Assembly (NCBI GenBank): GCA_037447655.1
Contig: JBBHKE010001178.1
Span: 279,031 to 343,030 of the forward strand
DNA: 64,000 nt
Direction: 5' to 3'
Origin: Zygnema cylindricum
Taxonomy: Eukaryota; Streptophyta; Zygnematophyceae; Zygnematales; Zygnemataceae
The notes beneath the pieces were generated by a model that saw only the letters and a program-made list of their open reading frames with translations, did not search any database and was not told the origin of the DNA. The translations under genes and the position numbers were made by a program. This document shows, in pieces, positions 11,722 through 47,080 of the stretch (position 1 is the stretch's first letter; each line of letters starts with the position of its first letter).

Positions 11722-11935
11722 CACCGTGTATCGCTATTAATGTTATTATTTTTTCGCCACTTAAAACATCTGTTCTCCGTACACACTTGTCCAATTTTTA
11801 GTTTGAGACAGTAATCGGAAGCGAGAATATTTCCTTTCAATCGCAGCCGTCAGATCCACAATCCGACAAATATGTACGGAGAAAAGACGTATTAAGTGGC
11901 AAAAAAAACATTAACACTAATAGCGATTCACGGTG
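11722..11935. mobile_element. MITE-like element with ~70-bp terminal inverted repeats (MITE1)
   Basis: The ends CACCGTGTATCGCTATTA and the complement of TAATAGCGATTCACGGTG form imperfect terminal inverted repeats that can be followed for about 70 bp. They include TTTTTCGCCACTTAAAAC and CTCCGTACACACTTGTC blocks. The 214-bp body is flanked by TA on each side and holds no coding sequence. MITE2 (31190-31406) is a diverged relative, and MITE3 shares the terminal CACCGCG and ATTAGTGT-type motifs. Confidence 0.75.
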
Positions 11936-20714: not shown

Positions 20715-21624
20715 GACAAAAAATATCGAAAATTGTAAGGAGAAAGGAGCGTAAGTTATCTTTTCTCCGAAAGGAGATTCAAAAAACACCATGAAGTAGA
20801 GGAAAAAATTGTAAAAATTAGTGGTTCCCATCGCTATTTTGTAACTAAAATGTGTATGGGAAATGTATTCTATATTTTTGATAACGGAGGACTTTCATTT
20901 TTTTTTTTAACTAGGGGGTTTCCTAGTTAAAAGGGAAAAAAAAAAGGTTTTGAAGGAAATTGGACGTAGTTTTTTTTCGAGGAAAGATTAAAAACGAGGA
21001 TGACAGTCTAATAAAAATAATTATTATTATTTGGGGATGGAAAAGTGTTTGTAATCTTTTTTAGTTTTCACATTTTGCAAGTAAAGCAAAATGGCAATAT
21101 TGTAAATTTGATGTATAATTCCATTGTCGTTGAAATTCTAATTTTAGTTTTGGTGATCTACACTGTTTTTTTTTTAAATCGTGGCATGGACAATTTATTT
21201 CAAATTATGGATTTGATTAAAAGCACTCGTGACATGTTTAAAAAGTCAATTTTGAAAGACTATGAAAGAATTCTTGGCTTTTAATATTCTTTCCAGTTTT
21301 CTTGTAATTCATCTATAACCTAAAAAAACAAAATAAAGTCATCTATCTTCAAATGCTTGGATAATTTTCTTCTTCATTTTTCCATTTCACCTTGTTTTGC
21401 ATTTTTTACTGTGAATGGTTTTTTTTCTGCTTTTATTCACGAAAACTTAGCATTTTTTATTCGAAAGAATGGACAAGTTGGTATGATTAGTTAAACAGAA
21501 TGAACCTCGCAACTATGAAAACCCTAAAAAACCATGAAAACAGAATGAGAAAGTTTTTTCATGTCTTTCAAAACTACCTATATGATGTAAATAAAAAAAC
21601 CTTGCAGGATAAATTAAAAAGCAC
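20715..21624 (+). other. 3' flank of symporter gene
   Basis: The stop codon at 20712-20714 is followed by AT-rich sequence, probably the 3' UTR. A perfect inverted repeat lies at 20907-20930 (TTAACTAGG, six-base loop, CCTAGTTAA), extended by flanking T and A runs, and an AATAAA-type signal is near 21335. A 79-codon frame at 21045-21284 is hydrophobic in its middle, but nothing identifies it as a gene. The region ends where the reverse transcriptase copy begins. Confidence 0.5.
20907..20930 (+). other. stem-loop in the symporter 3' flank
   Basis: TTAACTAGG, loop GGGTTT, CCTAGTTAA. Poly-T before and poly-A after can lengthen the stem. It lies about 195 bases after the stop codon, so it may be part of the mRNA. 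Confidence 0.6.
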
Positions 21625-24600: not shown

Positions 24601-24657
24601 AGGGCATCTTGTACTATTGTCCTGACGGCCATAGGAATACGGGTGTACAATCGCGGG
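21625..24657 (-). pseudogene. RLE-type non-LTR reverse transcriptase, copy 1, truncated at assembly gap
   Basis: Homologous along its length to 25219-28260 and broken several times. Motifs in order: SRLVAVAKPNGGIRPIAVGEVLYRLVAR (RT start), FSPHQFGVATREGCEAVVHEIRA, motif A VLQVDVSNAFNTVDR, motif B TGTRQGDPLGGPLFALA, and motif C SVADDTHIIG with valine in place of the usual aromatic. A thumb-like segment with GCPLGSNTFV and DPQVAFAILTRCFPHRPSYLTRT follows. The C terminus has a C-x-C-x8-H-x3-C cluster (VCACGRVLGPDGVHLLCC), then RRIDV and FGDIVLANPT, which I read as a restriction-like endonuclease core. Lesions include TAG after EIRAL (23766; TTG in copy 2) and a frameshift near 23385-23400. A 15-bp duplication (SEGIASEGG) lies near 22325-22350. 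The 5' part is lost at the N gap. Confidence 0.85.
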
Positions 24658-24667
24658 NNNNNNNNNN
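24658..24667. other. assembly gap (10 N)
   Basis: Ten ambiguous bases at the exact point where copy 1 of the reverse transcriptase loses similarity to copy 2, so the truncation may be a scaffolding artefact. Confidence 0.99.
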
Positions 24668-25218
24668 GCATGGCACAACAAGTTCAGCCAAGTTTGAACA
24701 GCCAGCAAGTAAAGTGGCGCAACTGAGAATGTGCATAGATCAGCACATGGATATATATAACCAACTCTGAAATTCCATCATAATAGAAAACTTCCGCAAC
24801 GAACAATTCCTCCGCATCTTTCTAGTCTTCATTTTCCTTCCTTCTTTTCTTCAACATAAACGTAACACGAATTGATACGTGTAAGAGTCAACGCGGTGAA
24901 ATGAACGACCGACAAGTTTGAACCGACTTGAACAACACGGTACGCAAAACCGCGAACCAACTTGAATCACGCGGTACGCCTTGAAATTCCATGATCCGAA
25001 ACTACTAAGAAATTCCCACGTCACTTATATTCTACAATTCAAACATACATGAAACGAAACAAACATTTCATTTCATGTCACTTCAAATATCCAGTGACGA
25101 AACTTCTTCGTCGCTGGTACTTCAACTATCCAGCGACGAAACTACTTCGTCGCTGGTCGTCGCTACCTTAGCTACAAGAATGACTCGTCGCTAACAGAGT
25201 TCTCAGTACCAAATCCTA
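24668..25218. other. spacer between the two reverse transcriptase copies
   Basis: AT-rich sequence without a coding frame. It contains two tandem palindromes: 25091-25117 (CCAGTGACGAA...TTCGTCGCTGG, one mismatch) and 25130-25156 (CCAGCGACGAA, five-base loop, TTCGTCGCTGG, perfect). Confidence 0.6.
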
Positions 25219-28200
25219 ACATGGTAAAACATCTGAGGCTGGGGGTACAAAAAGGGTGGCATGGGTGGCATGACCAATACTGAAAAACAGCAATAAAAAA
25301 CAAAAAGAGCGACGAGAACACAAAAAAAAAGCAACAACAAGGAAAATAGAAGCACCCTAACTCAAAATGAAAAGCACGGCAACTCACAAACACAAAACTA
25401 CAAACCCCAACCCCAACCCTAACTCAATTAAATATCTACGAAAAAACAACCCCGTAAGTCCCCCCAGCCTAAAGAGCACGTTGAGGGAGTTCCGAAGCAC
25501 GGCGACGATCCATAACCGCAACAGTGGATCGGAGGAGAATAGAAGCTTGCACTCGCTGTAGAGCCACGGATAAGCGTTGACAGTAAAAAGAAGTAAGGAC
25601 CAAAAGAAGAGGGCTTCCAGGTCCTCGACGCTCGAAAGCACGTCAAGCACAAGTACGCAGAAACACGTCAAGTGCAACACCCAAACAACCAAAGATCTCG
25701 ACCGCCATCGGAATAAAGTCATTCATAAGGTCCCGGTGGGGATAATCACGCTCCTTCACCTTAGACGCATCACGAGCTGCCACCCCAAGATGTCGAGCCG
25801 CCTGACCAACAACTGTAGCTGAAGTAGGGTTCGCCAGAACAATATCACCGAAAAATGCAACGGGCACCATCAAGCAAAACAACATCGATCCGACGCGAGG
25901 GAATAATATGAGAAACCTCTCGTTGCACAGAAAAGCTCCCTTCTGAAGCGATAGTGGCAACAGTGTCTCGAATAGTGTCGTGCGCCTCGATCAAATCTCC
26001 CCCATGGAAGCAACGAAGCAAATGGACACCATCAAGCCCCAAGACATGACCACGTGCACAAACAAGAAAGCCACGTAAAAGAGGATGGGAAAGGCCAAGG
26101 CAAAACCGAAGGGCGGTGGTGAACTGAGCCAGTGAGAATCGGAGAGTGGACAAAATAGATGTAGCAAAAACCAAGACCCACAACCAGGTCCACCACAAAA
26201 AAGAAGACGGGCACGAGAAGAATCGGAGGGAAGCGCCTTGAGAAGCTCGGATTAATAGTGGCGACAACCAGATCATAAATCGATTCCTGGACACACTCAA
26301 CAGATTTTGTAACAAGGGTCAAGAAAATCGGCACATCCACAAGGGAATGGGGAAGAAGAGAACGTGACGTGTCCAATAGAGATCGTTGGAAGGCGAGCAC
26401 ACTGTCTGAAACCCGGGGGATAACACTAGCTAGAATAGGGGTGTCCCCAGCCAAGAAACGAGGAACAAGAGTAGAGGTAATAAGACACCAACTTCCCAAA
26501 TAGGCACCGGGAGCAACACGAGCGGTCGATAATAGACCCAACCCCCAGTAGAGACAAGGAAAGATGCCTGAATGCGGGGCGATGGCCCAGACTCGCCATC
26601 AAATGCCCCGCGACCTAACAGAGTGTAGAGGACATCCATGAGGCGATCGTCAAAAGTGAAGAGAGAGGAGACAAATGTCGAGGTGAGAGGGGAAGTACGA
26701 GTGATGTAAGAAGGGCGGTGGGGAAAACACCTGGTTAACGTAGCAAAAGCAACTTGGGGATCGAGAAGGTGAGGAAAGTCGTCCACTTGGATTAGATGTG
26801 TCTGTAAAGCATCATGAACGAATTGGGTCACAAAAGTATTTGAACTAAGGGGACGACCAAGCACACGAATGCCATCAGAGAGAGAAGGGGTTTGAAAACC
26901 AAGAGGGGGAGTAAACGAAATGGGAATATCCTGAGGAGACCAAATAACACACTTCGACTGTTGAAATGAAAGGTTGAGTATAGCTAAATGTTCCATGAAA
27001 AAATCATATGCCAACACGACTTGTTCTCTCGGCCCAATAATGTGCGTATCATCTATGACCGATGGGAGAAAGCAAGAAGGGAAGGCGGCAGCGGAGGCAC
27101 GAAGGGCCTGGTAATGGGCAAGGACGACTAAAGGTCCGCCGAGAGGGTCACCTTGGCGAGTGCCAGTAGCAGAGAAGTAAGGAATAAGATCACCATCGCC
27201 GAGAAGGAAAGGCTGCTTGTCAAAGAATAGAAAGCCCTCACAAAAGGGAATAATTGGACAATCGGAGATGGAGCCGCCATAAGCTCTGAAAAAATCACGT
27301 TCCGATCCACTGTATTAAATGCATTGGAAACGTCGACTTGAAGGACCAACCAATCTGGATGTACATCCAACAAAGCCCGAATTCCGTGGACCACGGCTCC
27401 ACAACCCCCTCTCGTGGCCACTCCAAACTGATGAGGAGAGAAATAATCATGGAAAGTTGGTCGGAGCTGGAGACATATCGCACGAGCCACCAACATATAT
27501 AAAACCTCTCCCACGGTGATAGGGCGGATCCCACCATTAGGTTTGGCGAATGCCACAAGGCGGGACGCCGTGAGAAGATCACAAATCCGAGAGGGAACAT
27601 CCCCACTAGCAATAAGGAACATACTCGAAAAAATACATCGAACCTCCTGGCACCCAATTCAAGGGGCAAAACATTGCAAAACAACTCATATACTGTGCCC
27701 GAGGGGCCCCCCGCTGAAAGGTGAGGAGAAGAGCTAAGTGCCTTCATGAAAACCTCCCGTTCCAAAGTAAAACTCTCAGAAGGCTCAAAGGTGTGGATGG
27801 AAGGGGGTAAAAGGGAAAGGGCAGGGAGGTGGAGAGCTCGAAAGACCTCAATAGTGGAAGAAGATCTGGGGGCAGGGGTGAATGGCTGTAAGGCCCGAAC
27901 CGCTCAAGAAAGCTCACCAACACGGCCTAAGTGAATTGCTCGACAATAAGAGGTCGGGACATCCGACGGCTTAGGTGGCCGACGTGGTATGAAAGAGGTG
28001 CTCGATACCCGATCCTCATGCTTGGCGTGGAGGGACTTCCAGTCACCACGAAGGAATCGGCAAAAAAACGCCATAGTTTCTCTAGCCCCACTGCCCCCTC
28101 CACAACCTGGAAGGACTAGCAACCAGAGAGAGAACATAAGAAGTAGGTGCCAAGGAGCAATGTATGCCGGGTTTAAAGAAACGTGGGACAAGGGGAGGTG

Positions 28201-28545
28201 GAGGGCATCTTGTACTATTGTCCTGACGGCCATAAGAATACGGGTATACAATCGTGGGCGGGGGGCTCCCAAATCATAAGCTCCCAAAACATCTAACTCA
28301 CGTATGAAATTCCTATCCTCATCTGTGGGGCCGGACGGGAGTGTGGTCGACGATGATTGAGGAGAGGTGATAGACAAAGGACCACCTATGGTTATACAAT
28401 GTCGACAACTCTGTGTATGAAGGAAAATATCGGCCCCAGCGGCAAAAATGTTGTGAAACCCAAGACATTCCAGACGCCTCGAAGGTTTTCGAGGTTTGGG
28501 TGGAGGTGGGGGAGGGAGAAGGGAATTAGAAGGGCTTCCAGACAT
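25219..28545 (-). pseudogene. RLE-type non-LTR reverse transcriptase, copy 2, near full length
   Basis: Most complete copy. The frame opens at ATG 28543-28545 (MSGSPSNS, proline-rich, then a His/Cys-bearing segment) and runs 213 codons to a TGA at 27904-27906, where copy 1 has CGA. RT motifs follow: RLVAFAKPNGGIRPITVGEVLY, FSPHQFGVATRGG, motif A VLQVDVSNAFNTVDR, motif C SVIDDTHIIG. Then come RVLGRPLSSNTFV and DPQVAFATLTRCFPHRPSYITRT, a weakened CCHC (VCARGHVLGLDGVHLLRC) and the endonuclease-like RRIDVVLLDG...GDIVLANPTSATVV...KERDYPHRD...PMAVEIFG. Single-base deletions near 27613 and 27197 shift the frame relative to copy 1. The 3' ends of both copies (near 25219 and 21625) share GTACAAAA...AACAAAAAGAGCGACGAG. 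No apurinic-type endonuclease is visible upstream of RT. Confidence 0.87.
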
Positions 28546-28774
28546 GGTTAATTAGTCAAAGAAGACATGGGAATTGGGAGGGTGAGAGAAAAAGAAAGCG
28601 TGGGAGAGGAAAAGGAACCATGTGGGATGGATGGGGAAATTGGTAGGGGCCAGAATGTAACCTAAAGTTTGATGCCGGAAAAGAAAGGGGCGGGGGGAGT
28701 GGGGAGAGGAGGGGGGAGGGGGGGAAGTGTGGGAAGGAGAGAGTTCAAGAATCGGTTTTGAGTGTGTAAGTGGT

Positions 28775-31105: not shown

Positions 31106-31189
31106 AATCCCTGGCACCCTCTAATACTGTACGTTCACCTCATAATTGTGTTGCAATTGTAGGCCGACATTATCTGAAGGCGGAAGTTA

Positions 31190-31406
31190 CATCGTGTATC
31201 GCTATTAGTGTTAACAATTTTTTTGTCACCTAAAACATACTTACTCCGTACACGCTTGTCGGATTGTCAATCGGAGACCAACATTAATAAGGTGAGAATC
31301 TTGGCTTTCAATCGCGACTGTCATATCCATAAACAGACAAGTGTGTACGAAAAAAATATATTTTATGTGGCAAAAAAATTATTAACAATAATAGCAAAAC
31401 ATAGTG
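31190..31406. mobile_element. MITE-like element related to MITE1 (MITE2)
   Basis: Left end CATCGTGTATCGCTATTAG and right end complementary to CTATTATTGTTAATAATTTT form imperfect inverted repeats of about 70 bp. Internal blocks CTCCGTACACGCTTGTC and GACAAGTGTGTACG pair. It is flanked by TA on both sides, 217 bp long and non-coding. Sequence and layout match MITE1 at 11.7 kb. Confidence 0.7.
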
Positions 31407-31859
31407 TACTCCAAGAAATGTGGAGCATGACGCCACCACTGATTCAAGTACGGCGTAGTACATGCGACAGACATCCCACTTTTAGAAGATCGAATCGATA
31501 AATCTAGGCCGATTTTAGGCCTATGGTGATTTTAGGGCAACGTGTTCCACCATACTACTTGTGTCCTAAAATCATTTATATGTTGTGGAAGCCATTTATG
31601 TATCTTTTAGTGAACACACAATGACTCTTTATACGAGAGGTAAGCAGAACTCATACATAAAATCATATTTCAATAGATCAATATGAGTGACGTCGTAAGT
31701 GAGGAGAATATGAGTACTGTTGTTCATACAAGGCAAGCAAGGGCGAACATGCACTATATCCAACCACGTCATGCTCAAAAATATGTACAAACGTAAAAGT
31801 GAACATGGAAGGTGGCAAAAGATATATATAGCATGAAAAAGAATAAATATGAGAAAAGA

Positions 31860-32665
31860 AAAATAATAAGGGTAGAGTACTCCCTTAGAGTGGATGATGT
31901 GAATATGTATGCGATTGGGATATGAGACCAAAATGGGAAGGACCTTAAGTGGTTGTCCGAGTACATTAATGCCAAAATTGGGTGGAAAATCTGTGTGTAT
32001 GTATGGATGCACTCAGTGAAAGGGGGGAGTGCTGATTGAATATCGACCGATGGCCTGCAAACCGTGACATAAGCTTCCTAAAGACAGCCAATATCAATCA
32101 GGTTCGTCCATTTAGACCAAACTCAATGCGGCAAAGATCCGTGACGAGCCGCATCAATAATGAGAGGTGGTGTGACCAACTGTTCCATCCGCTTATAATC
32201 AATCAACACCATAAGGCATGCATCATTACAAACGACTACATTATTGAGAATATAGCCAACGGGCCGATCGAGAGTTTGTAATAAGTGTATGACTATCATA
32301 AATTCAAAAAAAAGCTTCGCACAAGGATCGGCGAAATTGAGGCCTTTCAACGCTCACAACATATCTTGGCATTCCCACCCCCCAAAAACCAACTATAACG
32401 GTTCTAATTCTAGTAAATGATGGTTGCTAAGAGTGAATGTCTTGCGGTAAAGCAGTATGCATGAGGAGTATTTCGTCTTAGGGAAGAGATAAGGGTATTT
32501 TGCATTCAAAAGGTGAAAATGATCGAGTTGCGTTTTTCGTGCCAATGCATCTATCTCAACTATGTAGTACTGACGAATGAGAAGCCCGATCCGAAAAAAA
32601 GACAAAAGAGAGGTTCTGATCCCAACAAATAGATCTAAAATAACAACCCCGTTATGATGTGGACT
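31860..32665 (-). pseudogene. C5 cytosine DNA methyltransferase relic of a retrotransposon
   Basis: Motifs in order: motif I VVILDLFVGI (32617-32645), then YYIVEIDALAR (motif II, VEID at 32549-32560) and LNAKYPYLFP. Next is TFTLSNHHLLELEPL leading into motif IV LVFGGWECQD (32366-32386) with the catalytic Cys codon at 32369-32371; the usual Pro before Cys is Glu. Then GLNFADPCAKLFFEF, RPVGYILNNV (motif VI; Glu of ENV replaced by Asn), PPLIIDAARHGSLPH and WSKWTNL (motif VIII region). After a frameshift comes NVLGQPLKVLPILVSYPN (motif IX-like, about 31910-31975). Stops fall at 32393 (TAG), about 32351 (TGA), about 32120 (TGA) and about 32078 (TAG). This copy cannot make an active enzyme. The enzyme family methylates cytosine C5 in DNA. 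Confidence 0.8.
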
Positions 32666-33042
32666 CTTTAGATAAGCTTCTAGTTAATGGTTAGGAAGCC
32701 TAAAGGATCCGTGGGAATCGAAGGGATAGTTCGAATAGGAGAAAGTGCGATAAGTAAAGTAGCTTTGTAAATATAATCGAAGTTTCCCCTGTTGATTAAG
32801 AAACCTGGCTCACAGGAAAAAAAGGTAAGATCTCTTCTGCCGACAAAGGGTAGAAGATTTCTTCTCCTACAGAGTTACCCAAAAAGCGAGATGAACAAAA
32901 GCAGAATGGGCGATAGTGGGCAACAGTCAAGGTTTACGCGAGAAAGCGATAAATGCCGAAGTCGAATGGGCCATAGTGGGATACGCTCAAGGGTTAAAAT
33001 GACAAGGAGACAAATTTTGCTCCCCAAAAAGTGTGTCGGTCA

Positions 33043-33357
33043 GTATTTGAATGTTTGATCGTGCATGTCCACACCACCACCGACTCGGAATATGACATCC
33101 TGACCCACTAAATGCTCCAAAATGTTGCATTTAGTGACTAGTGCCTGAACGGAAATTTCAACGAACTCATTTTCGGTTCAAGTCTGAACCCGAAAGATGA
33201 GCAGGTCTTTTGTGATTCCAAGGACCGGCTCTATGGTCTCAGCCGAGGTGAAAAATCGAGTGGCGTTAGCCTAAAGCTTGTCTGTTGTCAAAACAAGCTT
33301 GAGCGCAAATTTGGATCCGAGAATCACAGGTTTGCCTTCAGTGTCTATCAAAGGGAG
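33043..33357 (-). pseudogene. retropepsin-like region of the methyltransferase-bearing element
   Basis: One frame gives LPLIDTEGKPVILGSKF, then TRFFTSAETIEPVLGITKDL, then ALVTKCNILEHLVGQDVIF and GGGVDMHDQTFKY. The last part resembles the C-terminal half of retroviral-type proteases (hydrophobic strand, LVGQD, then a strand ending in F-x-Y). At least three in-frame stops are present, and a DTG/DSG active site was not found. Its position between Gag and the methyltransferase supports the reading. Confidence 0.45.
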
Positions 33358-33895
33358 AGAGAGAGAGATACCGTTGATAGAAAATAACCCGTGAGTTATC
33401 AAAAAAGTTGATGTGGGGGTTTGGGGTTCGGTGTTCATCGGTCGTAACCGGCTAAACAGTCCAAAGACTACGGTTCAGTTGCAAGGCCCTCAACGCCGCA
33501 ATCGCAGCAACCTTATATATTAGGGAAATGTCTCTAGGAACGTCTTCTATCATCGCCGACAACATGCTCACCGGTCCTTTGACACGTTAAGCCTCGTGGA
33601 TGGTTCTGTCAAATATCATAGGTGCTTCAACTACTATAGCTAAAGTTGTTGCATACAAAAGAGGGAGAGGTTCCTTGCAAATAAAGCGACACTCTAGATG
33701 TAGGGTTGTGATCGGCTGAGCCCTTATCAAAAGTAGATGCAGGTTGTTGGATGGTAGAATCTCGAAGGGTTTGGTAGGCCAACGACGACGCATGGACGAC
33801 CATTTTGGTCATCTCTGTAAACTAGGGTTTTATTTCCGCCATGAAAGCCGCAACTTGCTCTTTCATCATGGTTGCTCTCTTTTTTGACGAGAGAT

Positions 33896-34860
33896 CTAAA
33901 ACGGAGCTTTCTTTTTCACAGTCTCTTTGGCGGGGTGACCGGTTTTGTAGAACGGGCTTTTTTGGCGGGGTGATCGGTTATGTACAACGGGCTGGAATTC
34001 TTCCGTTATGAGTTTGATTTTGATAAATGAAATCTTATTACTTAATGTGGCAACGGTAGACGTAATGCCTTTTCTACAAGATGTGGATGCATATGGCCGA
34101 TTTATGTGACAAATGAAGGCATCATGCCCCGTCTTTCCCCATTCGAAACACAATCCATTGCCGCAATTAGGGGGTGGGGTTCCCATGGCTGACGTCTTTG
34201 GGGACCTATTGGGAGGCCATGGGTTTTTAGGTGGAGGAGGAGATGGGATAACCAGTTTCATACGAGTAGGTTTGGGTTGTTTATGAGCATCCCACCAGAA
34301 TGTCTGCATCTCGTACTCCACCGCATATTGAGCCACTTGCTCAAATATGAAATTCAGTCTGTACATTTGACTGAGGTGGGTTTGTATAAACCTTCTAGAT
34401 TGGCCCGAGAATTGTCCCACAAATTTTTGGACACCTTTCGCATCGCATATAAGGTCCATTAAAGCTTCTCGCATAGTTTTCATTCGAGCACGTAGGGCGG
34501 GGGCAGTTTCACCCGACGAACGTCTAAAGTTCATTAACTTTTGCAGCCTAGTATGGAATATCTATCTGGCCTAGGACTTTTGGTAATCCCGCAAAAAGAG
34601 GAGCGTACTCCCTCATTGCCAGAATGGTTTCATATTTACAAGTATAGAGAATAAGGGCCGAACCGCGAAGGTATCGACCGAGGAGAGAGAAAGCCACCCG
34701 GAGGTCAACCCTATCCTAGTATCTGAATGTTAGATCCCTCATTTTTGTGGCATACAACATTCGGAAATGAGACAATGACATAGTGTCTTCCATACCAAAG
34801 AATTGTAGGCTTTGGAAAAGGAGAAGAATATAACCGCGGTGGTAGCAAAACTATCCCGCC
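33896..34860 (-). pseudogene. Gag relic with degenerate zinc knuckle
   Basis: A 212-codon frame (34534-33896) carries alpha-helical Gag-like sequence (KFVGQFSGQSRRFIQTHLSQ) and a knuckle CFEWGKTGHDAFIC, in which the second Cys of C-x2-C-x4-H-x4-C is Trp. Basic Pro-rich segments flank it. Upstream, 34860-34535 continues in Gag-like style (HFRMLYATKMRDLTF; VAFSLLGRYLRGSALILY; ETILAMREYAPLFAGLPKVL) with several stops. No start or LTR is assigned. Confidence 0.65.
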
Positions 34861-36917
34861 GTGGGTAGATCCGGATTCAAAACATATGTTGTCCTAATCT
34901 ATGGGCATGAAAAAGGGGAAAACCCTAAATTGGAACAGTTCGGAATTCGGCACGGCCTAAGGAGGTGCAGGAAATGCCTAACCACACCAAACTGATCAAA
35001 CCACACACCAAACTGATCAAACTACACACACACACACAGACTCAGTGGTCAGGTTTAATCAAGAAAACGTATTACCAAAACTGCTACCCTCTAAGACAGT
35101 AGAGCAAGGCCGAAGGGCCAGGTCTATAAAAACAAGCAGAGAACTATCCACGCACCTTTCGGTGTAGATCTACAGCGGCACAGATAGAAAGGTGTCTAAG
35201 CAATGCCACCCACGCCAAGATCTAGGAAGAAAATCTACACCAATTAATCACACACAATCTCTACGGCCACACAAACCCAGATAGCGTAAGCGGTAAAATG
35301 CAAATGCTCAATCCGATTGGGCTCCAAGGAACCCAATCCACTCCGAACCTTTTATACGAGTGTCCACACTAAATCTGGTAGCTCCTGCGCTAGTAGGTTA
35401 TCGAAAGGCAACTCTAGCACCCTAGTGAGTGCTACGGGTGAACCGAAGTTGTTAGGAGCAAGTCGAATTTTGTAGAGCTCCTCGAATGTAATCCGCTCCA
35501 CAATCCGCTCCACAATCGGCTCCAAGAAATATCTCCAAAGGTGTCTCCCTACGAGACTCTCCGCGGATTTTTGCCTCGGAATCTTTGGGAACCCGAATGA
35601 GAAAGGTATAAAATAAAAGAAATAGGTAGGTGAGTACTAGGGGTAAACTGGACTTATTCGCAGCAAGTCGGATTCGTAGCAAGTCTGATTTTGTAGAGCT
35701 CCCCAAATGTAATCCGCTCCACAATCCGCTCTAAGAAATATCTCCAAGGGTGTCTCCCTACGTGACTCTCCGTGGATTTCAACTTGAAGGAGAAAGGTAG
35801 AAAATAAAGGAAAAAAATAGAACAAATGGCAAAGGTAATTTAGCATTAGGTAGGAGGCTGCTCAAACTCTAGACATGCAGCCTCACTTATGAATGTAACA
35901 ATCCGGATTCAGCAACAACCCTAATTATGTTAGACAAATCCTAATCTGACAGCAAAAACCCTAATTCAGATAAAAAAAGTCGTAATTTAGACTGCTAAGA
36001 CACTAGATTTACAGCCAAGAAACTTTTAGCAACAAGCTAAAAGGGCAAGATCTAAAGAATAAGACCCTAAATCTGCAAAAATCTTAAATCTGCAGAAAAA
36101 CCCTAAATCTGCCGATTAACCCTAAATCTCCAGTTAACCCTAAATCTACAGATTAACCCTATATCTATCACATAATATAGATCTGGGTTTTTAGCAAGGA
36201 AATAGGGTGGCAGCAAGATAGGAAAGAAGAATTTAAAAGAAGTAATTTAAGAAAAATAATAATTTTTTTTTTTTTTTTGTTTTTTTTTAATTTAGACCTT
36301 TTGGGCAAGAATACCAAGCCACAAGGTAGCCACTGGGCTCTCGGGTCTTTATCGTATTCTCTACAAGGGTTTTCTCCACCAGCAACAACAAAGCAAAAGC
36401 AATTTCAGCCAAAAACACAGGAAAATCCAATTCGGCCAAAATAACACTCTTCCCACCTCAAATAAGATACAAGCGAGAAAAAACAAAACAACAACAAACA
36501 CCCAAACCGTCTGGCTGCCCGAGGAAGGCATTGCCGGATCCGGATGCCTCTCCACACGAGTTCTAATACACCACTCCCAAGAGATGACTTAAGTTTTGGA
36601 GGGAAACCTTCTCGACTTAGCTCTGGGCCGCGTGGATTAAAAAACGTAGGCAGAAAACAAGGAAAAATATTCGTGTACAATCTAGCCACTATCACTAGCT
36701 AGCAAATAGAAAGAATAAACGTGAGCAATCGAGAGAGAGAGCAAGAGAGTTGCCTTGCCGCCAAGAGAAAATTCTTGTTCAAAAGCTAAAAAATTTTAAA
36801 TCTGAAATTAGACTAATTAGAAGTTACGCTACGCTTACGCAAACTTAGCCTAAGTCTAAGCTAGTTTACATGAACGAACCTACTTAAGATGTTGGCGAAT
36901 AGACGGCCAGCATCGTT
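34861..36917. other. repeat-bearing region between Gag relic and copia C
   Basis: It contains two direct copies of a block of about 130 bp (35453-35590 and 35660-35800) sharing GTAGAGCTCC, AATGTAATCCGCTCCACAATC and AAATATCTCCAA. Next is an AACCCTAAATCTGC-type degenerate repeat (35929-36180), then a T/A homopolymer near 36260-36290. No coding frame is convincing. Part may be the leader or LTR of the methyltransferase-bearing element. Confidence 0.5.
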
Positions 36918-38726
36918 TGAAACTCTAAGACCTCCATAAGTCCTCAGAGTGGACAGCTTCCAAGAAGCCTCTAGGATAATCCTGACCCTTTTGTGTTTCA
37001 GCAAAAATAACTGCAACCCTGGCAAACGAAAACCCTGACTACCTGCACCCCTGTGAAGGCAAGACTCCCCTGAGTTGATAGCAAAAAGAATCTCTGAATT
37101 TGCTCCCCTGAGCAGTAAGTTATGGAGGGTCAAAGTTGACCTTTTGTACAGAAGCTCTCGGGGAGAGAGGGTCCTATCTTCTAATTTTTTCTAAGTCCTA
37201 TCTCTCTCACAGACTCTATCTACTGATGTACGGACCAATCAGATTACAGTTCCGTACGCAAAAGTACAGCTGCCGGTGTACTTTATGTACGGACATTGTA
37301 CGACATGGCCTAAATGTCCACACGTGGAATATTCGGATTCGCTCCTCTAATCCTCGGAGATGCCGCGCTTGTTGAGAAAGTAATCCTAAGTTAGTTCAGA
37401 AGGTAGTGCATTAAAGGGAGAGAGCGCAGTGGCGCAATGGAGAAGCACAGTGCAGAAGTGCAAAGTGGAATAACTTTCTTGTTTAATATTTAAATCGAGT
37501 ACGCGACCAGACGATCTTTAATTATAGAGAAAGAGCTTTCGAACGAGCTATAGAGAGCAAGATTTGGATACGTAGATCAAAAGTTACAGGCGTGCAAAGC
37601 AGAAGCTTCTAGAAGGTTCCACAGGAAACGGTATGGACTTTTCCGAGGTGGTTCCTAAGTGTTTCCTTGGAGTTTCGGGGACATGTCTAGTAGGTTCTTG
37701 TGACGTGGAGAGCCACGAGTTTCGGGGACATGTCTAGTAGGTTCTTGTGACGTGGAGAGCCACGAGAAGGACACTTGTCAATAAATTAGAGCTAGAAATG
37801 TCTAGAATGTCTAGAAGGGTAGAGTAGAAAAGAGTATATATGAAGTAGGAGAACTAGACAAATATGTACAATTGGAGAATTGGTTGTGACCATAGCTGAA
37901 GAGATAGTAAGAGTCCCTATAGTGAGAAAGCATTGTAACTCTGTGTGAGTTGAGATACAAAGATAAGTGAAGCCTTGTAAAGAATCACTTGGAGAAAATA
38001 AAGTGATTCTTCTTGTGAGGAAAATTTGAGCAAGTGTGCTTTTACTTTGTGAGTGAATTCTTTGTGGCTTCGGAAGATTCTTGAGTGACCTGTGAGAGAG
38101 TTTTTGCTTTGTGAAGCTAGATTGTTGCATGATGAGTGAGGCCCACAAAATTCAACAGCGCTCCAATGTTACATCGCCACGTGTCATACGATGTGGCGCT
38201 GCCCACAAACCGCCGAATTCTCCTTCCGCGATCTCGGCGCAATTTCCGGCCGTCCGATTAAACTCGTATTTGATCGTAGCCGTAATAAATCAATGCGCGG
38301 TATTGATTTCTTATCCGTACCGCAATTCGTACTTTTACAATACCATATCTATGTATCCCGTTAATAGTTATAGTTAAATGATTTATCCTACGTGTACATG
38401 TTTAAATAAATATCGTACTATATACTATGCAACACTACATCTAGACTTAACGACTAAGGCTACCGGCTATCTACCATCTGTCGGCCGGCAGGTACCAAGA
38501 TCAAATCCTGCCGCCGGCACATAACTTTTAGTAATTAATCCCTAGACTAATATAAATTTCCCGTAAACCTGAGGATAGCCTAGGTAGCCATGGCTCTAGC
38601 TTCCTCTCCAATTTCTCAGTGACTGCGACAAGTTTGAGAGTTGGAGAGAGAAGTTAGAGGTAGACTGCCTCGGCTTCTTTGTTTCTATTCAGACCTAGAA
38701 AATACTTAAAACCATTAATTTCTACA
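36918..38726 (-). repeat. 3' LTR of copia element C
   Basis: Flanks of the nested LTR (36918-37369 and 38158-38726) align with the element A LTR. The nested LTR occupies 37370-38157. The antisense tRNA-like module is at 38440-38521. Confidence 0.95.
37370..38157 (+). repeat. solo LTR of another element nested in the C 3' LTR
   Basis: 788 bp beginning TGTTGAGAAAG and ending AAAATTCAACA, so it has inverted termini TGTTGA/TCAACA typical of LTRs. It is flanked by a 5-bp duplication GCGCT (37365-37369 and 38158-38162). A 47-bp unit beginning GTTTCGGGGACATG is tandemly duplicated inside (37672-37765), and an AATAAAG signal is near 37998. Orientation is assumed from that signal. A copy with the same ends and flanks sits in the other LTR, so it was inherited through the life cycle of element C. 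Confidence 0.9.
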
Positions 38727-38739
38727 CTCCCCTTATTTT

Positions 38740-41700
38740 CTAGTCAATCTTTAATTTCAGACCACACTTCTCCCTGCTGAAAATTAGCTTAGGGGAAGGC
38801 ACAGGTTTGGTCATCATATCTGCTACCATCTCACTATCTGGCCTGTACTCTAAACTGATTATTTTGTTTTCTACTTTTTCTCTAACAAAGCTGAGTCTGA
38901 TGTCCATGTGTTTGGCTTTAAAATGATGTTTAGGATTGGCAGAAATAGCGATTGCTGTCTGATTATCACAAAATATTTTCTGCACACCACTCTTAAGGTG
39001 ACCAAGCTCACCAAGCAAAGACTTGACCCACATCAATTCTTTTACAGCAGAGCAAGAGGCCATATACTCAGCCTCCATGGTGGACTGAGCAATAACCTTT
39101 TGCTGTTTGCTACTCCAACAGCAAGCCCCATCACCCACATATAATACATATCCAGAAGTACATCTCCTCATCGGAGCATCACCATAACTGGCATCACTCC
39201 AAGTAGTGATGTCAGTATTCTCCCCACCCAAATGCAACTATAGATCTCTAGTTCCTACCAAATATCTAAGGACTCTCTTAGCTGCCTCCCAATCCTTCTT
39301 AGTGGGAGCATTTAGACTTCTACTCAGCACTCCTACAGCTGCAGCTAAATCCGGCCGGGTACAATTCATAAAATATATTAGACTTCCCACTACTAGCCTG
39401 TAAGGAATAGTCTGCATGAACTTCTGTTCATCAGGAGATAATTCCTCATCTAAGACTATGACTCCTTCTTCCTCACTCCCCTCACTTCCCTTCTTCAACT
39501 CCATTGGAGTTGTACAACTATTAGCTTTATCCATTTGAAATTTTTAAAGCATGTTCCCTATTGCTTCCTTTTGAGTCAGTTTTATAATTTTCCTTTTTCC
39601 GTCTCTCTCTACTTGAATTCCCAAAATATATCTTGCTTCTCCCATATCCTTCATTTCAAATCTCCCGTTAAGATCGGTTTTCAGTTTGTTAATTTTTTCC
39701 ATTGATTTACTTAATACAAGCAGATCATCAACATAAATTGCAATAAATATCAAACCTTCCTCATCTTCAAAGACATAGATTGAGTGATCTGAGCTGATCC
39801 GAATATATCCCAGACCGGTAAGAAACTCATCAAGCTTCTTATTCCATTGTCGAGGTGCCTGTTTCAAACCATATAGAGATTTAATCAGCCGGCATACCTT
39901 ACTCTCCTCTCCTTCCTCCACAAAACCTTCGGGTTGTCGCATGAAGATCTCCTCTTCCAATTCTCCATGCAAAAAGGTTGTCTTGATGTCCATCTGATGC
40001 ACTTCCATGTCTTCTGCCGCTGCTAAACTGAGAAGTATGCGGACGGAGGGAAATCTGACCACCGGGGCAAAGGTTTCCTCGTAGTCAATTCCTTCCTTTT
40101 GTGTAAATCCTTTTGCCACTAATCTGGCCTTGTAGCGCTCGATTGTGTTATCTGGATTCAGTTTTAGTTTGAAAACCCACTTACAACCGATTGGTTTTCG
40201 GTTAGGTGGACAGTCCACCAGCTCCCAAGTATCGGCTGCCATGATTGAAGCCATCTCCTCATTGATGGCTGTCTTCCACCGGTTTCTTTCTAGACAAGTC
40301 ATCGCCTCTACATAAGTTTGAGGTTCATCTTGAAGAGATAGTTTAGTTACCTTGTTAATAACCTGTTTTTCTTGCAGTCTTTTGCTACTTCTCCTCCCCC
40401 CTTCAAAATCTGAGGCTGGAATAGATGGTTCTCGTGGATTCTTTCGAACAAACTCGACTTCTCCCCTATCCGTTGATTCCGAATCAATTTCCACCACGTC
40501 TTCCGCTTCGAGTAGAGTTGTCACTGGAGTTTCCACAGCCGAGTCCTTTTCGGTCTTATTTGTACCTGCAAGAATGTCATCTTCTCTAAAACCTGGGTAG
40601 TTAGGAAGCTCAAAGTCATCGGAATTTTCTGACTCAAATCTGATTTTTACTGACCTCGTATATTTGAAGGGATCCACAGACTTTCCTTCATCCATAACTA
40701 CTAGATGTTTTACTAAGATTATATCTTCCTTTTTTAGATCATAAACTCTATATCCTTTAACATCTTCATCATATCCTAATAAGTATCCCGGTTTTCCTTT
40801 AGGATCTAGCTTCCAATTGGACCGATCAGTATCTAGACTGAACTCTTGACTGCCGAAAACCTTTAAGTGAGATATGTCTGGTTTCCGGCCTGTCCATCTC
40901 TCATAAGGTGTTTGATCTTTTATAGCTGAAGTAAGAACTCTATTCTTGAGGTAATTAGCACAGTTCATTGCTTCTGCCCAAAACCTTTTTCCTATTTTTT
41001 TATCTGACAACATACTTCTAGCACTATCACTTAGTGTTCTATTTAACCTTTCAGCTACCCCATTCTGTTCCGGATTTTCTGGAACTGTCTTTTGGTGTTA
41101 ACCCCATCTTCCCTCAGAAAATCCTCAAACTGGTTAGAAGTATACTCTCCACCATTGTCACTCCTTACTCTCTTGATAGGAGTTTCATGGAGTTTTTCGC
41201 TCCATGCTTTATATTGTCTAAAGCAATCCTCAGCTTCGGACTTGTTTTTCAAAAAATACACCCGGGAATACCGAGACCAATCATCAGTTATAGTCATCAT
41301 AAATCTCTTCCCCCCGGTGAGGGCACTTTAGCCGGTCCCCAAATATCTGTGTGTACTAGATCTAGAATTTTTTCTCCCTTATAGGTGGCTGATTTAGGAA
41401 AGGGTAATCTGTGTGCTTTACCTTGAGCACATCCACTACAATCACTTATATCATCACTCTCACTGAACTGAATCCCTTCCACCACTCCCATTTTTTTCAT
41501 CTCTCTTAACTTATCTAGATTCACATGCCCAAGTCTCTTATGCCACATCATAATATCATGAACACCAGCATAATATCATGAACACCAGCATAATAAAGTT
41601 TCTTCGTTTCATTACTTAAAATCAGCCTAAACATCCCATGGCTACCTTTCTCAGCAATGAAATAGACATCCTCCTCAAAACTAGCAGTAAAAACTCCTTC

Positions 41701-43122
41701 CCTAGTGCTAGTAAAAAAACCCTTATCATCTAATACTGATGTAGAGATAATATTTTTGTTCACCTCCGAAATAAACAATACATTGGAGAATGTTAATATG
41801 GATGTCTTTCCTTCTACTAACACTTTCAGATCTACCGATCCTACAAGAGTAGTGGTGACTATCCTCCCATCCTCGTACTCTATCTCTACGGTGGGAATCT
41901 TTCTTATCTTAGTGAACAGGTGCCTATCCTTACACATGTGCATGGAGGCACCTGAATCTATGATCCAACCTGCTTCACCTTTCAATCCACCGTAAGCACA
42001 TTTCTGCCTTCGTGGAATTTCGACCTCATTTTTCGCCTCCAACTCCTCATCCAAAAGGAGCTCATCGTCCTCGTCCTCGTCCTCGGATTCCGCCTCAAGT
42101 ACCTGTGTGACAAGGGCCTTTTTCTTTCCTCTCAGGGAACCACCGGTCTGCCCCTCCTTTAACCGAAGCTCGGTTAGCTTAGTGCACTCTGCCATATAGT
42201 GCCCCGATTTCTTACAAAAATGACATAAACCTTTGGGAGCCCTTGGTTCGAACTCGTCGGCCTGTTTTTTCTGCTCCCTACCCCCATAGTTTCCGACCGG
42301 TTTTCGGGAATCCCTGTTCCTCCAATCAGTCGCTGTTGCCAAGGCTTGGCCACTCTTTCCTCCCCTTCGGATCTTGATTGTATTCTCTTGAACGAGAATC
42401 ATCCCTACCACTGAGTTCCATATCCACCTTGAGTCAGGCAAGTCCTGCACACAGTAAACTATGTTCACGAACTCATCAGGTAACTTCATCAGTAAACAGT
42501 TAACCTTTTCTTTTTCACTAAAATCTTTTCCCGCACTGTGTAGCTCCATGAAGAGTGTAGCAAGCTCATTGCAAAAATCCAACATATTTCCCCCTTTGTA
42601 TACATACTCCTTCACTTTCTGATCAGCCAACTGTTGTTGCTGAATCGTACCACTTCGGTACATCTCTATGAGAGCCATCCAAAGATCGGATGCCCTTTCT
42701 ACCTGCAAATGAGGACATGCAAGTCCTTGAGTGAGATGGCGTAGGATGAAGTGCTTTGCCGCCATATTGTTGAAGTCCCAGGTTTCAGTATCATTCTCCT
42801 CGTTCCTCGGAATAGGTGACATGAATGTCGAACCAGTTGCTATTGGTGTGGTCGTCTCCTTCTCCTTTCCTTTGTCCACCACCTCTCCTTCTTTTGTTTC
42901 CTCCGTTGAAGGTGGATCCTCTTTCCTGGTGAATCTGGTTCCTCCAAACCCTGGAGGAATTCCAAGACTTGATGGATGCCCCAACCGTCCACTCACTATC
43001 CCCCAAAATATTTTTTCGCATAGAGCTCCTATCATCATACTTTCCCAGTATATGAAGCCAGTTCCATTAAAGATTGGTACCCTAGAGGGTGGGCCCATAA
43101 CCTGAAACTCTGAGACCTCCAT
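38740..43122 (-). pseudogene. copia C Gag-Pol polyprotein, multiply broken
   Basis: It starts at ATG 43120-43122 inside the LTR and ends at 38740. Gag, knuckle (CHFCKKSGHYMAEC) and protease (IIDSGAS) are in one open 524-codon stretch, which keeps CAG where element A has TAG. A 20-bp tandem duplication (41555-41594) shifts the frame before the HHCC finger. Single-base deletions follow in a C run near 41315 and near 41099, either side of the integrase core. RT is open over 489 codons (39544-41013) with QMDIKTTFLHG and YVDDLL. Nonsense codons fall at 39544-39546 (GAA in A) and 39238-39240 (TGG in A). RNase H motifs WSDASYGD and CDNQTA are present. Confidence 0.92.
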
Positions 43123-44942
43123 AAGTCCTCAGAGTGGACAGCTTCCAAGAAGCCTCTAGGATAATCCTGACCCCTTTGTGTTTCAGCAAAAATAACTGCC
43201 ACCCTGGCAAACAAAAACCCTGACTACCTGCACCCCTGTGAAGGCAAGACTCCCCTGAGTTGATAGCAAAAAGAATCTCTGAATTTGCTCCCCTGAGCAG
43301 TAAGTTATGGAGGGTCAAAGTTGACCTTTTGTACAGAAGCTCTCTGGGAGAGAGGGTCCTATCTTCTAATTTTTTCTAAGTCCTATCTCTCTCACAGACT
43401 CTATCTACTGATGTACGGACCAATCAGATTACAGTTCCGTACGCAAAAGTACAGCTGCCGGTGTACTTTATGTACGGACATTGTACGACATGGCCTAAAT
43501 GTCCACACGTGGAATATCCGGATTCGCTCCTCTAATCCTCGGAGATGCCGCGCTTGTTGAGAAAGTAATCCTAAGTTAGTTCAGAAGATAGTGCATTAAA
43601 GGGAGAGAGCGCAGTGGCGCAATGGAGAAGCACAGTGCAGAAGTGCAAAGTGGAATAACTTTCTTGTTAAATATTTAAATCGAGCACGCGACCAGACGAT
43701 CTTTATCTACAGAGAAAGAGCTTTCGAACGAGCTATAGAGAGCAAGATTTGGATACGTAGATCAAAAGTTACAGGCGTGCAAAGCAGAAGCTTCTAGAAG
43801 GTTCCACAGGAAACGGTATGGACTTTTCCGAGGTGGTTCCTAAGTGTTTCCTTGGAGTTTCGGGGACATGTCTAGTAGGTTCTTGTGACGTGGAGAGCCA
43901 CGAGTTTCGGGGACATGTCTAGTAGGTTCTTGTGACGTGGAGAGCCACGAGAAGGACACTTGTCAATAAATTAGAGCTAGAAATGTCTAGAATGTCTAGA
44001 AGGGTAGAGTAGAAAAGAGTATATATGAAGTAGGAGAAGTAGACAAATATATACAATTGGAGAATTGGTTGTGACCATAGCTGAAGAGATAGTAAGAGTC
44101 CCTATAGTGAGAAAGCATTGTAACTCTGTGTGAGTTGAGATACAAAGATAAGTGAAGCCTTGTAAAGAATCACTTGGAGAAAATAAAGTGATTCTTCTTG
44201 TGAGGAAAATTTGAGCAAGTGTGCTTTTACTTTGTGAGTGAATTCTTTGTGGCTTCGGAAGATTCTTGAGTGACCTGTGAGAGAGTTTTTGCTTTGTGAA
44301 GCTAGATTGTTGCATGATGAGTGAGGCCCACAAAATTCAACAGCGCTCCAATGTTACATCGCCACGTGTCATACGATGTGGCGCTGCCCACAAACCGCCG
44401 AATTCTCCTTCCGCGATCTCGGCGCAATTTCCGGCCGTCCGATTAAACTCGTATTTGATCGTAGCCGTAATAAATACATGCGCGGTATTCGTTTCGCTTA
44501 CGAAATCAATGCGCGGTATTGATTTCTTATCCGTACCGCAATTCGTACTTTTACAATACCATATCTATGTATCCCGTTAATAGTTATAGTTAAATGATTT
44601 ATCCTACGTGTACATGTTTAAATAAATATCGTACTATATACTATGTAACACTACCTCTAGACTTAACGGCTAAGGCTACCGGCTATCTACCATCTGTCGG
44701 CCGGCAGGTACCAGGATCAAATCCTGCCGCCGGCACATAACTTTTAGTAATTAATCCCTAGACTAATCTAAATTTCCCGTAAACCTGAGGATAGCCTAGG
44801 TAGCCATGGCTCTAGCTTCCTCTCCAATTTCTCAGTGACTGCGACAAGTTTGAGAGTTGGAGAGAGAAGTTAGAGGTAGACTGCCTCGGCTTCTTTGTTT
44901 CTATTCAGACCTAGAAAATACTTAAAACCATTAATTTCTACA
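43103..44942 (-). repeat. 5' LTR of copia element C
   Basis: 1840 bp, including the nested 788-bp LTR (43555-44342). It ends on the minus strand with the polyprotein start codon and the half-tRNA primer site immediately inside. The antisense tRNA-like module is at 44656-44737. Confidence 0.95.
43555..44342 (+). repeat. solo LTR of another element nested in the C 5' LTR
   Basis: Same 788-bp TGTTGA...TCAACA sequence as 37370-38157, flanked by GCGCT at 43550-43554 and 44343-44347. It contains the same 47-bp duplication. Confidence 0.9.
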
Positions 44943-45433
44943 TCGTTTGCCGTACGCTTAACAAAATCCACCCTTTGAGGGTAAAAACCCTCCCTATCTA
45001 CATGTGCGCGTGAGCCAACATGGGTTCACGACTTAAATGCGAATCAAAATCGAAGCACCACCAAACGCTCCTCATACCTGCGATCCATACGTCGTCCAAA
45101 CGATATCCGCGCCCGTACATTCGAATCGCGTACCTACGCACAAAATGAAACAAAACGCACTAAATTAGTACCTGCTCCAAAGGTCGCAAACGGTCAACCG
45201 AAACCGTGACCGACCGTTAACCAACCGCTCGCGCCGGATCCGTAACGAATTAGATTGGCAAATTTTGGGGGTTGGGCGGTTACGGTCGGTTGATTCACCA
45301 GGAAAAAAAAACGGTCGGTTACGGTCGGTCAACCCAAAAACCAAAAAAATGAAAATTTTGTACTGTCCCTATAATCCAACATTCTTGTACTTTGTACTCT
45401 TTGGCATCGTGGAAGTACGTGACATCATGATTA

Positions 45434-46288
45434 GCGTCACAAATTTGACACGGTACTGTAGTAAGCTATTTATTTCGCAAATCAAAGGGAACGCGACAAA
45501 GCGTCGCAAATCTGACACGATAGTCCACTATTAATTTTGAAAATCTTAGGGAACGCGACAAAGCGTCGCAAATCTGACACGGTAGTAGAATATTTATTTC
45601 GCAAGTCTTAGCCAACGCGACAAAGCGTCGCAAATCTGACATTGTACACCGCGCATCGTTTTTAGTGTCAAGGTTTAAAAAGTTTAGAAGTAAACTTACC
45701 GTAATTGATGCTAATTAAGAATCTGATTTTTTTTTTAAAAAGGTGTATTCTAATTTCGACGTTAATGCTAATTTGGAACAGCAAAATGGAAATTTTTCTG
45801 TACGATTATACACATTATTACATGTATCCGTACAAAATATTAGAAATCGTACTCCGTCGTGAAATTTAAATATCTGTACATGTAAGACTAAATTACGTGT
45901 CAGACCAATCCCATTTTTTGAGTGCACGTTCTTATGCTTGCGCGTCTGATTTAATTCATTTTTTGAAAAAAATTCACTTGAAAAGGTACATTTATGTACG
46001 GTTTGACATCGACCGTACACCACACTATTTAGATATTATTTTACTTTCGTTCTTTACGCTATTTTGTACGGTACCTTAATTAACGTCAAGGAAAAATTAA
46101 AATCATGTATCCTATTTGGGGATAAAAATCAAAATTTTAAGAACCCAAATTATAGTTGTTGACACTAATAAAGATTCGCGGTGTAGTACACTATTCATTT
46201 CGAAAATCTTAGGGAACGCGACAGAGCGTCGCAAATTTGACACGATAGTAACACTATTCATTTTGCAAATCTTAGGGAACGCGACAAA
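45434..46288 (+). repeat. 62-bp satellite with GCGACAAAGCGTCGC palindrome, interrupted by MITE3
   Basis: Units start near 45434, 45501, 45563 and 45625, and resume after MITE3 near 46226. Each holds GGGAACGCGACAAAGCGTCGCAA or a variant (inverted arms GCGAC/GTCGC) and CTGACACGRTAGT. The last partial unit ends near 46288. Confidence 0.85.
45647..46183. mobile_element. inverted-repeat element inserted in the satellite (MITE3)
   Basis: Left end CACCGCGCATCGTTTTTAGTG and right end complementary to CACCGCGAATCTTTATTAGTG, flanked by TA. The 537-bp interior has no transposase-like frame. The termini resemble MITE1. The satellite resumes on both sides, so this is an insertion. Confidence 0.7.
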
Positions 46289-47080
46289 TCGTAGTTATTG
46301 GCTTATTCCGTCGTACATTGATTAATTCTGTACTTTTTCGGTTACGGGCGGGCACGCTTAGTCGCGAAAAATCAAGATTTGGTTAATTATTTTTTTCGTA
46401 AATGACGGTCGGTTAACGGTTAACAATTTTGGAGCGTGACAAAACTCGGTCGGGCGTCAGTTACTCAGATTTTGAAAAAAAAAAACAGTCGGTTTCGGGT
46501 ATGAAAATTTTTGACTTTTGAGACCTCTGACCTGCTCAACAAGACGTGTATGTCAATAGCGTACACGTCAACAATAAATGAATCGGCGATATGAGTCACG
46601 CGCGCGTGCCACAATCATATGTGCGTGCCAAGAATCATGCGTTGCTTGCCCAAAAATCGTGCGTGCAAAGAGTTGTTATCATGCGGCATGATAGTACTCG
46701 TGTTGTTTCTTCTTAAAAACTAGACATGTGGATGTGAGTATCCTTCCTTGATTTGCAAGACGAAAGACCACAATCACGTAGTAACATTGCAAGAGAAGAT
46801 ACCATGGTCATTAGACAAACAAGTAGGGATGGATGCAAAATAAAATGAAATACTCTTTGCCAATGCGGCACAAGTACACATGTGAATCGAAATAAACAAA
46901 CAACACAAGGAAATGGAAGTCGGGGGGGAAAGGCCACCTCTTTTGTGCGAAGGCGGAGAGCTGGAGTACTTCCTTTGCCAAAATAAGGTTGGTGGGAAAG
47001 GAAAGCGAAAAGCGGAGAACGAGTAAAGATGAATGGCCAATCATGGCAAAGCATCACAGTATTGCATGCAATAAACACTA

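Follow-up and report, generated by a model that had tools for sequence, protein, structure and literature searches.

A Ty3/Gypsy retrotransposon family of Zygnema cylindricum with a putative DNMT3-like methyltransferase in Pol and a PHD finger after the integrase

DNA methyltransferases (DNMTs) of the DNMT3 type within the Pol open reading frame (ORF) of Gypsy elements are known from the charophyte Klebsormidium nitens (KnitGypsy-Dnmt3; de Mendoza et al. 2018, PMC5890265). The same paper also presents DNMTs in DIRS and LINE elements of Symbiodinium (SymbioDIRS-Dnmt3 and SymbioLINE-Dnmt) and de novo CpG methylation in yeast by the DIRS-borne DNMT3s. Passages of a 2025 article (PMC12344493) place DNMT3s within retrotransposons of streptophytes and dinoflagellates, naming Copia where the former paper has Gypsy, and the main text of a survey of plant long terminal repeat (LTR) elements contains neither a PHD nor a methyltransferase (Neumann et al. 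2019, PMC6317226). Here we describe a Ty3/Gypsy family of Zygnema cylindricum with a putative C5-cytosine methyltransferase of its own, starting from a dead copy in a stretch of 64,000 nt (assembly GCA_037447655.1, 352.8 Mb in 2689 contigs; JBBHKE010001178.1:279,031-343,030, forward strand), the whole of which we call the window. The initial annotation of this DNA had proposed a retrotransposon relic with a cytosine methyltransferase, recalling that such retroelement-borne enzymes exist in some algae and protists; the elements published for Klebsormidium bear this out (PMC5890265).

A search of the assembly with window positions 31,600-34,700 (best 40 of 827 candidates scored) returned at least 107 matches on at least 38 contigs, the window's own contig included. 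Twenty stretches of 10 kb were examined: nineteen are relative loci (L104 to L122) with ~70% DNA identity to the relic, and one (L123) carries a duplicate of the relic. The ORFs of L106, L107 and L110 gave the Pfam domains zf-CCHC, Asp_protease_2, DNA_methylase, RVT_1, RT_RNaseH, Integrase_H2C2, rve and PHD in this order, with zf-CCHC and Asp_protease_2 below the Pfam cut-offs and the remaining domains above them in at least one of the three copies. Their Pol order of protease (PR), reverse transcriptase (RT), RNaseH and integrase is that of Ty3/Gypsy elements, the window relic showing Gag and PR only, and Pfam identifies the RT of the relatives as RVT_1, with RVT_2 not seen. When all 19 loci were mapped with the L107 and L110 domains, the DNMT was located in 18 (L105 being without it), each time between PR and RT, the RT in 15 and the PHD finger in 12, the remainder being truncated, decayed or cut by the end of the stretch. 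DNMT, RT and RNaseH share one frame in L107, and the PHD finger follows rve within one open frame in L106, L107 and L110 (Pfam PHD, E 2.2e-10 to 1.8e-11). By its domain order (Gag, PR, DNMT, RT, RNaseH, integrase, PHD finger) the family is of the Ty3/Gypsy kind and probably an LTR retrotransposon, and the initial annotation, which had pointed to the rest of the genome for copies joined to RT and integrase, is answered by relatives that carry the methyltransferase together with RT, RNaseH and integrase. As a separate observation, L118:568-8983 (G000:C32) holds a tandem direct pair of 3.9-kb element copies, 98.9% identical to each other.

Genome-wide, the DNA_methylase profile (123 of 782 candidates scored) marks at least 123 places on at least 113 contigs. 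At least 29 of these 123 are followed on the same strand, no more than 6 kb downstream, by a scored RNaseH (RT_RNaseH profile, 150 of 2564 candidates scored); none has one upstream on the same strand, and two have one on the opposite strand. The spacing between methylase and RNaseH is 2.09-2.39 kb in 28 of the 29 pairs and 3.35 kb in the last, and seven pairs have an equal open-frame length. The other 94 places, with no scored RNaseH paired to them, are candidates for copies with an unscored RNaseH, fragments or host genes. Counted the other way, a scored methylase lies upstream of 29 of the 150 scored RNaseH places, so many Gypsy elements of this genome may be without one.

In the window, the methyltransferase stretches lie on the minus strand in a single frame from 32,683 that is interrupted by stops: ILDLFVGI, VEID, GGWECQD, RPVGYILNNV and IDAARHGS...WTNL, which we take to be motifs I, II, IV, VI and VIII. 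The stretch NVLGQPLKVLPILVSYPN, presumably a counterpart of motif IX, sits in another frame, with a frameshift near 32.02 kb. Compared with the PDB by phmmer, the relic methyltransferase matched DNMT3A (E 4.9e-6), and its reversed letters, used as a control, gave no match at E<=10. A profile of 81 viral C5-methylases, run over six-frame chunks of the whole window, matched two overlapping chunks only (best E 2.2e-11), and a 76-residue methylase piece matched three viral contigs with C5-methylases. The AlphaFold model, made with six sequences, is of low confidence (mean pLDDT 61.8, pTM 0.65); a Foldseek search with it gave DNMT3 complexes in all 50 matches listed (best E 1.7e-8, query TM 0.57). 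One of three length classes in a protein database search yielded three PF00145 proteins (best E 4.3e-4). A chance match is ruled out by the DNMT3A match, the empty reversed control and the single place of the viral profile in the window.

At the level of sequence, the relatives in the same genome settle the identity of the relic methyltransferase, because the relic has 51-69% protein identity to copies in which Pfam detects DNA_methylase above cut-off (62% for the main DNMT piece, 56% for its tail). All the motifs named by the initial annotation are present at their place and in order, NVLGQPLKVLPILVSYPN being the one in another frame; the protease tail and the Gag with a zinc knuckle that it placed upstream are there too, the knuckle damaged, and its order of Gag, protease and methyltransferase recurs in the relatives. 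Of the six-frame profile check that it suggested, the viral C5-methylase profile matched here alone, and Pfam was silent on the relic itself; with that reservation, neither of the two outcomes that it named as refuting came about.

The enzyme of the family is DNMT3-like as judged by sequence and modelled fold (L107 DNMT against DNMT3A, E 6.4e-10). Motifs I, II, IV, VI, VIII and IX are unrearranged in relatives and relic, motif X was recognised by eye in L107 only, and the stretch from motif II to IV is longer than in the aligned viral and database relatives. The catalytic Cys of motif IV is kept in 17 of the 18 copies, and so is the Glu of ENV (Lys in L121; Asn in the relic). The residue immediately ahead of the catalytic Cys is Glu in the relic and in 17 of the 18 copies, the remaining copy having Asp; each of the five viral and database relatives in the alignment has Pro there. 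We say "DNMT3-like" because Glu-Cys stands in place of Pro-Cys.

In the PHD finger, 8 of 12 copies have all eight zinc ligands (C4HC3) and no stop. Its solved relatives include PHF12, Lid, KDM5, DPF, KAT6 and BAZ2, some of which are readers of histone H3 unmethylated at K4. In the element a Gly presumably stands where methyl-lysine readers have their cage Trp, and by analogy the finger may read H3 unmethylated at K4. DNMT3A and DNMT3B also pair the methylase with a histone-reading zinc module (ADD), that of DNMT3A being a reader of unmethylated H3K4; on this analogy, the element may have rebuilt the pairing of methylase and histone reader by a different route than DNMT3A.

Selection was assessed as the ratio of nonsynonymous to synonymous substitution rates (dN/dS) by NG86, with codons mapped from tblastn pieces and with comparisons dropped at dS <=0.02, fewer than 60 codons or saturated dS; decayed copies were kept, with higher ratios as the expected effect. 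Pooled values were 0.35 for Gag, 0.48 for PR, 0.44 for DNMT, 0.28 for RT, 0.33 for RNaseH, 0.28 for integrase and 0.24 for PHD. Both DNMT and PHD are under purifying selection.

Direct repeats at the ends of the 10-kb stretches were found in eight loci, 94-100% identical over 106-372 bp in seven and 83% over 176 bp in one. Because these partial LTR pairs are 94-100% identical in seven loci, some copies are young. By inferred ends, no single 10-kb stretch holding a whole LTR pair, the LTR measures ~1.14-1.23 kb in six copies and begins with TGTCATG in five and TATCATG in L114. The 10-kb stretches showed no target duplication around a relative, and inspection by eye revealed no tRNA-type primer site past the inferred end of the LTR. 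Over its first 350 bp, read from the 3' LTR of L104, L106, L107, L109, L110 and L114, the LTR has 43-53 CpGs, 2.1-2.3 times the expected number.

Taken globally, we think it very probable that the window holds the relic of a Gypsy family with a DNMT3-like enzyme between protease and RT, and a PHD finger after the integrase in fuller copies, with self-methylation as its proposed mechanism. In a live copy, Gag-Pol would be packaged and the DNMT freed by the protease of the element. The enzyme would then remain associated with the reverse transcript and the integration machinery, and would methylate cytosine, most likely in CpG, either on the fresh cDNA or where the element lands. The PHD finger, in turn, would tether the integrase to histone H3 tails and so pick the landing chromatin. 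The likely benefit would be self-restraint or hiding, as a copy marked at birth would be silenced fast and persist. Both the activity of the DNMT and the function of the PHD finger in this family are what we infer from sequence and by analogy. A more elaborate version, which we offer tentatively and which may well be wrong, is a read-write chromatin kit: an integrase PHD reading H3 (probably unmethylated at K4) and a DNMT3-like enzyme whose active site has been remodelled would together choose the landing chromatin and methylate there or at the CpG-dense LTR of the element itself, young copies repeatedly losing the catalytic motif.

Several observations weigh against this explanation. As to the identity of the relic itself, Pfam gave 0 families at E<=10 with five pieces and 0 at E<=1 with the three minus-strand frames of 31,850-35,002, and two of the three length classes in the protein database gave nothing at E<=1. 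The PHD finger was mapped in just 12 of the 19 loci. The observed/expected CpG ratio is ~0.9 in the coding regions of nine copies, which therefore bear no mark of long CpG methylation. The Klebsormidium Gypsy enzyme showed no activity in yeast, a result that its authors call inconclusive in the main text of PMC5890265. Three further points concern the enzyme: the Glu before the catalytic Cys, a dN/dS that indicates weaker constraint on the DNMT than on RT, integrase and PHD, and four different one-base deletions in L106, L110, L114 and L119, none more than 20 nt from the codon of the catalytic Cys (4710-4746 on oriented L107). By simulation, four deletions in any 37-nt interval have P = 0.03, a post hoc test on 36 one-base deletions (14 copies, 6.68 kb, L107 as reference) in which a deletion common to two copies was counted once and one-base insertions, including the losses of L107 itself, were omitted. 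The cluster may reflect chance, errors of assembly or a genuine tendency of copies to lose the enzyme. A programmed frameshift in the DNMT is ruled out, the four one-base deletions near motif IV being at four different places.

These three points are also what would favour the view of the DNMT as a passenger, captured once, kept in frame for Pol readthrough and useless to the element: a dN/dS of 0.44 exceeding that of RT, integrase and PHD, independent deletions around the catalytic Cys in four copies, and the change from Pro to Glu in motif IV. We regard it as unlikely all the same, since the ratio is well below 1, 17 of 18 copies retain the Cys and 17 of 18 the ENV Glu, and the methylase-RNaseH spacing is maintained in at least 29 places. 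An enzyme that targets mainly the host or competing elements, altering the host methylome, would suit the high count of methylase places (at least 123) and the unusual methylome of Symbiodinium alongside such elements, but the methylome of Klebsormidium is plant-like despite such elements (both in the main text of PMC5890265), and this reading seems to us distinctly unlikely. For the domain, a role in RNA binding or modification, or as a scaffold, with DNA methylation lost, is very unlikely; the altered motif IV in all readable copies speaks for it, but Cys and ENV Glu are conserved, and both sequence and fold place the domain nearest to DNMT3, which methylates DNA, and not to DNMT2. A plain host gene or pseudogene that came to lie next to remains of gag and protease by accident is an alternative raised by the initial annotation and suggested by a relic that alone has no Pfam match, RT or integrase. 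It is hardly credible and is ruled out by the relatives, 18 of 19 of which have the methyltransferase in the same position, after PR and before RT, and by seven methylase-RNaseH pairs with one open-frame length.

Dinoflagellates and one charophyte alga have raised the question why transposons should carry the very enzyme with which their hosts silence them. With at least 123 methylase places, copies that are partly young and a polyprotein that bears a chromatin module besides the DNMT, a comparison within one genome becomes possible: copies with intact against broken catalytic motifs, and elements with against without the DNMT, given a host methylome. Integration-site choice through the PHD finger and self-methylation through the DNMT may be linked, and if the proposed self-methylation is true, such elements may mark and read host chromatin themselves.

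The relic spans ~46,693 (the inferred start of the 5' LTR) to ~31,717 on the minus strand, split by a copia element and a second insertion (Table 1), and it is colinear with the relatives across LTR, leader, gag, PR, DNMT and 3' untranslated remnant (nine copies compared). The motifs lie where the initial annotation put them, its coordinates being too narrow for the whole element. Positions 46,585-46,542, or nearly so, align with the LTR of 9/9 copies compared. In the gag remnant, a Trp replaces the second knuckle Cys, an ORF occupies 34,561-33,896 and a frameshift separates the first from the second part; the retropepsin motif reads LIDTEGKPVILG in the relic as against LMDTGAKPVILG in the relatives. 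The relic is without RT and integrase because ~3.7 kb are deleted relative to the relatives, comprising the DNMT end, RT, RNaseH, integrase and PHD, and comparison with the LTRs of the relatives found no 3' LTR beyond 31,717 down to 29,000. It is a divergent, dead copy and, given protein identities of 51% in Gag, 61-69% in PR and 62% in DNMT, probably an old branch of the family. With its stops, its frameshift and ENV turned into NNV, a working enzyme cannot come from it. Neither Gag nor PR pieces matched viral contigs, the best PDB match of Gag had E 0.11, and a single-sequence structure model of the Gag ORF (pLDDT 50.8) was too poor for use.

Table 1. Components of the relic and of the sequences inserted in it (window positions)
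Feature	Position	Strand	Basis or remark
5' LTR piece 1	46542..46693	-	start inferred from TATCATGCCGCATG; start motif TCATGCCGCATG = LTR start of six copies
Other sequence of ~1.37 kb interrupting the 5' LTR, with tandem repeats	45172..46541	.	gap between LTR pieces
5' LTR piece 2	44943..45171	-	alignment to LTR of relatives
Copia nested in the relic 5' LTR, a separate element	36918..44942	-	LTRs 36,918-38,726 and 43,103-44,942
5' LTR piece 3	36297..36917	-	74-82% identity to LTR pieces of relatives
Leader, LTR to gag	34794..36296	-	patchy alignment to relatives
gag remnant, damaged zinc knuckle CFEWGKTGHDAFIC	33875..34793	-	51% protein identity to L107 Gag
Retropepsin remnant	33079..33496	-	61-69% protein identity to relatives
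DNMT3-like C5-cytosine methyltransferase remnant (putative)	31875..32683	-	motifs I, II, IV, VI, VIII and IX-like in order
Internal deletion junction	31888..31897	-	adjoining window matches leap from ~5.1 to ~8.8 kb of relatives
3' untranslated remnant	31717..31888	-	71-75% identity to post-PHD stretch of relatives

The nested copia is 8.0 kb long, with LTRs of its own that are 97.3% identical and a target duplication AACGA, and the relic LTR resumes past it. Copia thus does adjoin the relic, as the initial annotation had it, as a separate element within the Gypsy LTR. The heavy methylation scarring ascribed to it there is only weakly supported, since four copia stretches have observed/expected ratios of 1.00-1.12 for TpG and 0.96-1.08 for CpA despite a low CpG ratio of 0.37-0.68. 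The tandem repeats in the sequence interrupting the LTR have a unit like TTTGCGACGC and occupy 45433-46292. Elsewhere in the assembly, a 2,039-bp second copy of relic positions 33,871-31,833, 99.95% identical, lies in a mosaic (L123:2806-5129, G000:C1874) with the RT-to-integrase part of a relative upstream, direct repeats of 123 bp (95%) on either flank of the relic piece and copia downstream; it may be a recent duplication or an assembly artefact.

Other parts of the window contain a MITE-like palindromic repeat in two copies (31188-31410 and 11718-11939, ~73-75% identical) and, at 21516-28551 on the minus strand, LINE-like elements with RVT_1 above cut-off in ORF 27131-27658 and weaker in two other ORFs; a 300-bp stretch is repeated there at 90% identity (24013, 27614). 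A plus-strand ORF at 17843-18670 matches a phosphate transporter (PHO4, E 2.3e-13) and is likely a host gene exon. A run of 849 N at 48648-49496 accounts for the low GC seen at 48-50 kb.

Among described systems, the family resembles KnitGypsy-Dnmt3 in having a DNMT3-type enzyme with unrearranged motifs in a Gypsy Pol, in several copies and under purifying selection (there Ka/Ks < 0.2; PMC5890265). Unlike that element, a PHD finger follows the integrase here, PHD and chromodomain being absent from the main text of PMC5890265; the repeats of KnitGypsy-Dnmt3 are DIRS-like by the same text, whereas those of Zygnema, over the stretches examined, resemble ordinary LTRs. The two are set apart here by published description. 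The Symbiodinium elements also carry DNMTs in many copies, those in DIRS elements being DNMT3s active on CpG in yeast, but they are DIRS and LINE and not LTR/Gypsy elements, and the main text of the same paper considers them separate acquisitions (PMC5890265). With chromoviruses, as the main text of PMC6317226 portrays them, the family shares the Ty3/Gypsy order and a chromatin-binding domain that ends the integrase; it differs in that this domain is a PHD finger, with an added DNMT, and in that Pfam found no chromodomain at E<=1 in the ORFs of L106, L107 and L110. Cellular DNMT3A and DNMT3B are the nearest solved relatives by sequence and fold, yet the element-borne enzyme has WEC for SPC in motif IV and is carried by a retroelement, and unlike the DRM methyltransferases of plants it keeps the motif order I to IX unrearranged. 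Among the titles and abstract starts listed by searches of the open-licence literature, none named a Gypsy element with both a DNMT and a PHD. Altogether, a DNMT3 in a Gypsy element is of a known kind, while the PHD finger after the integrase, the Glu before the catalytic Cys and the CpG-dense LTR are apparently new.

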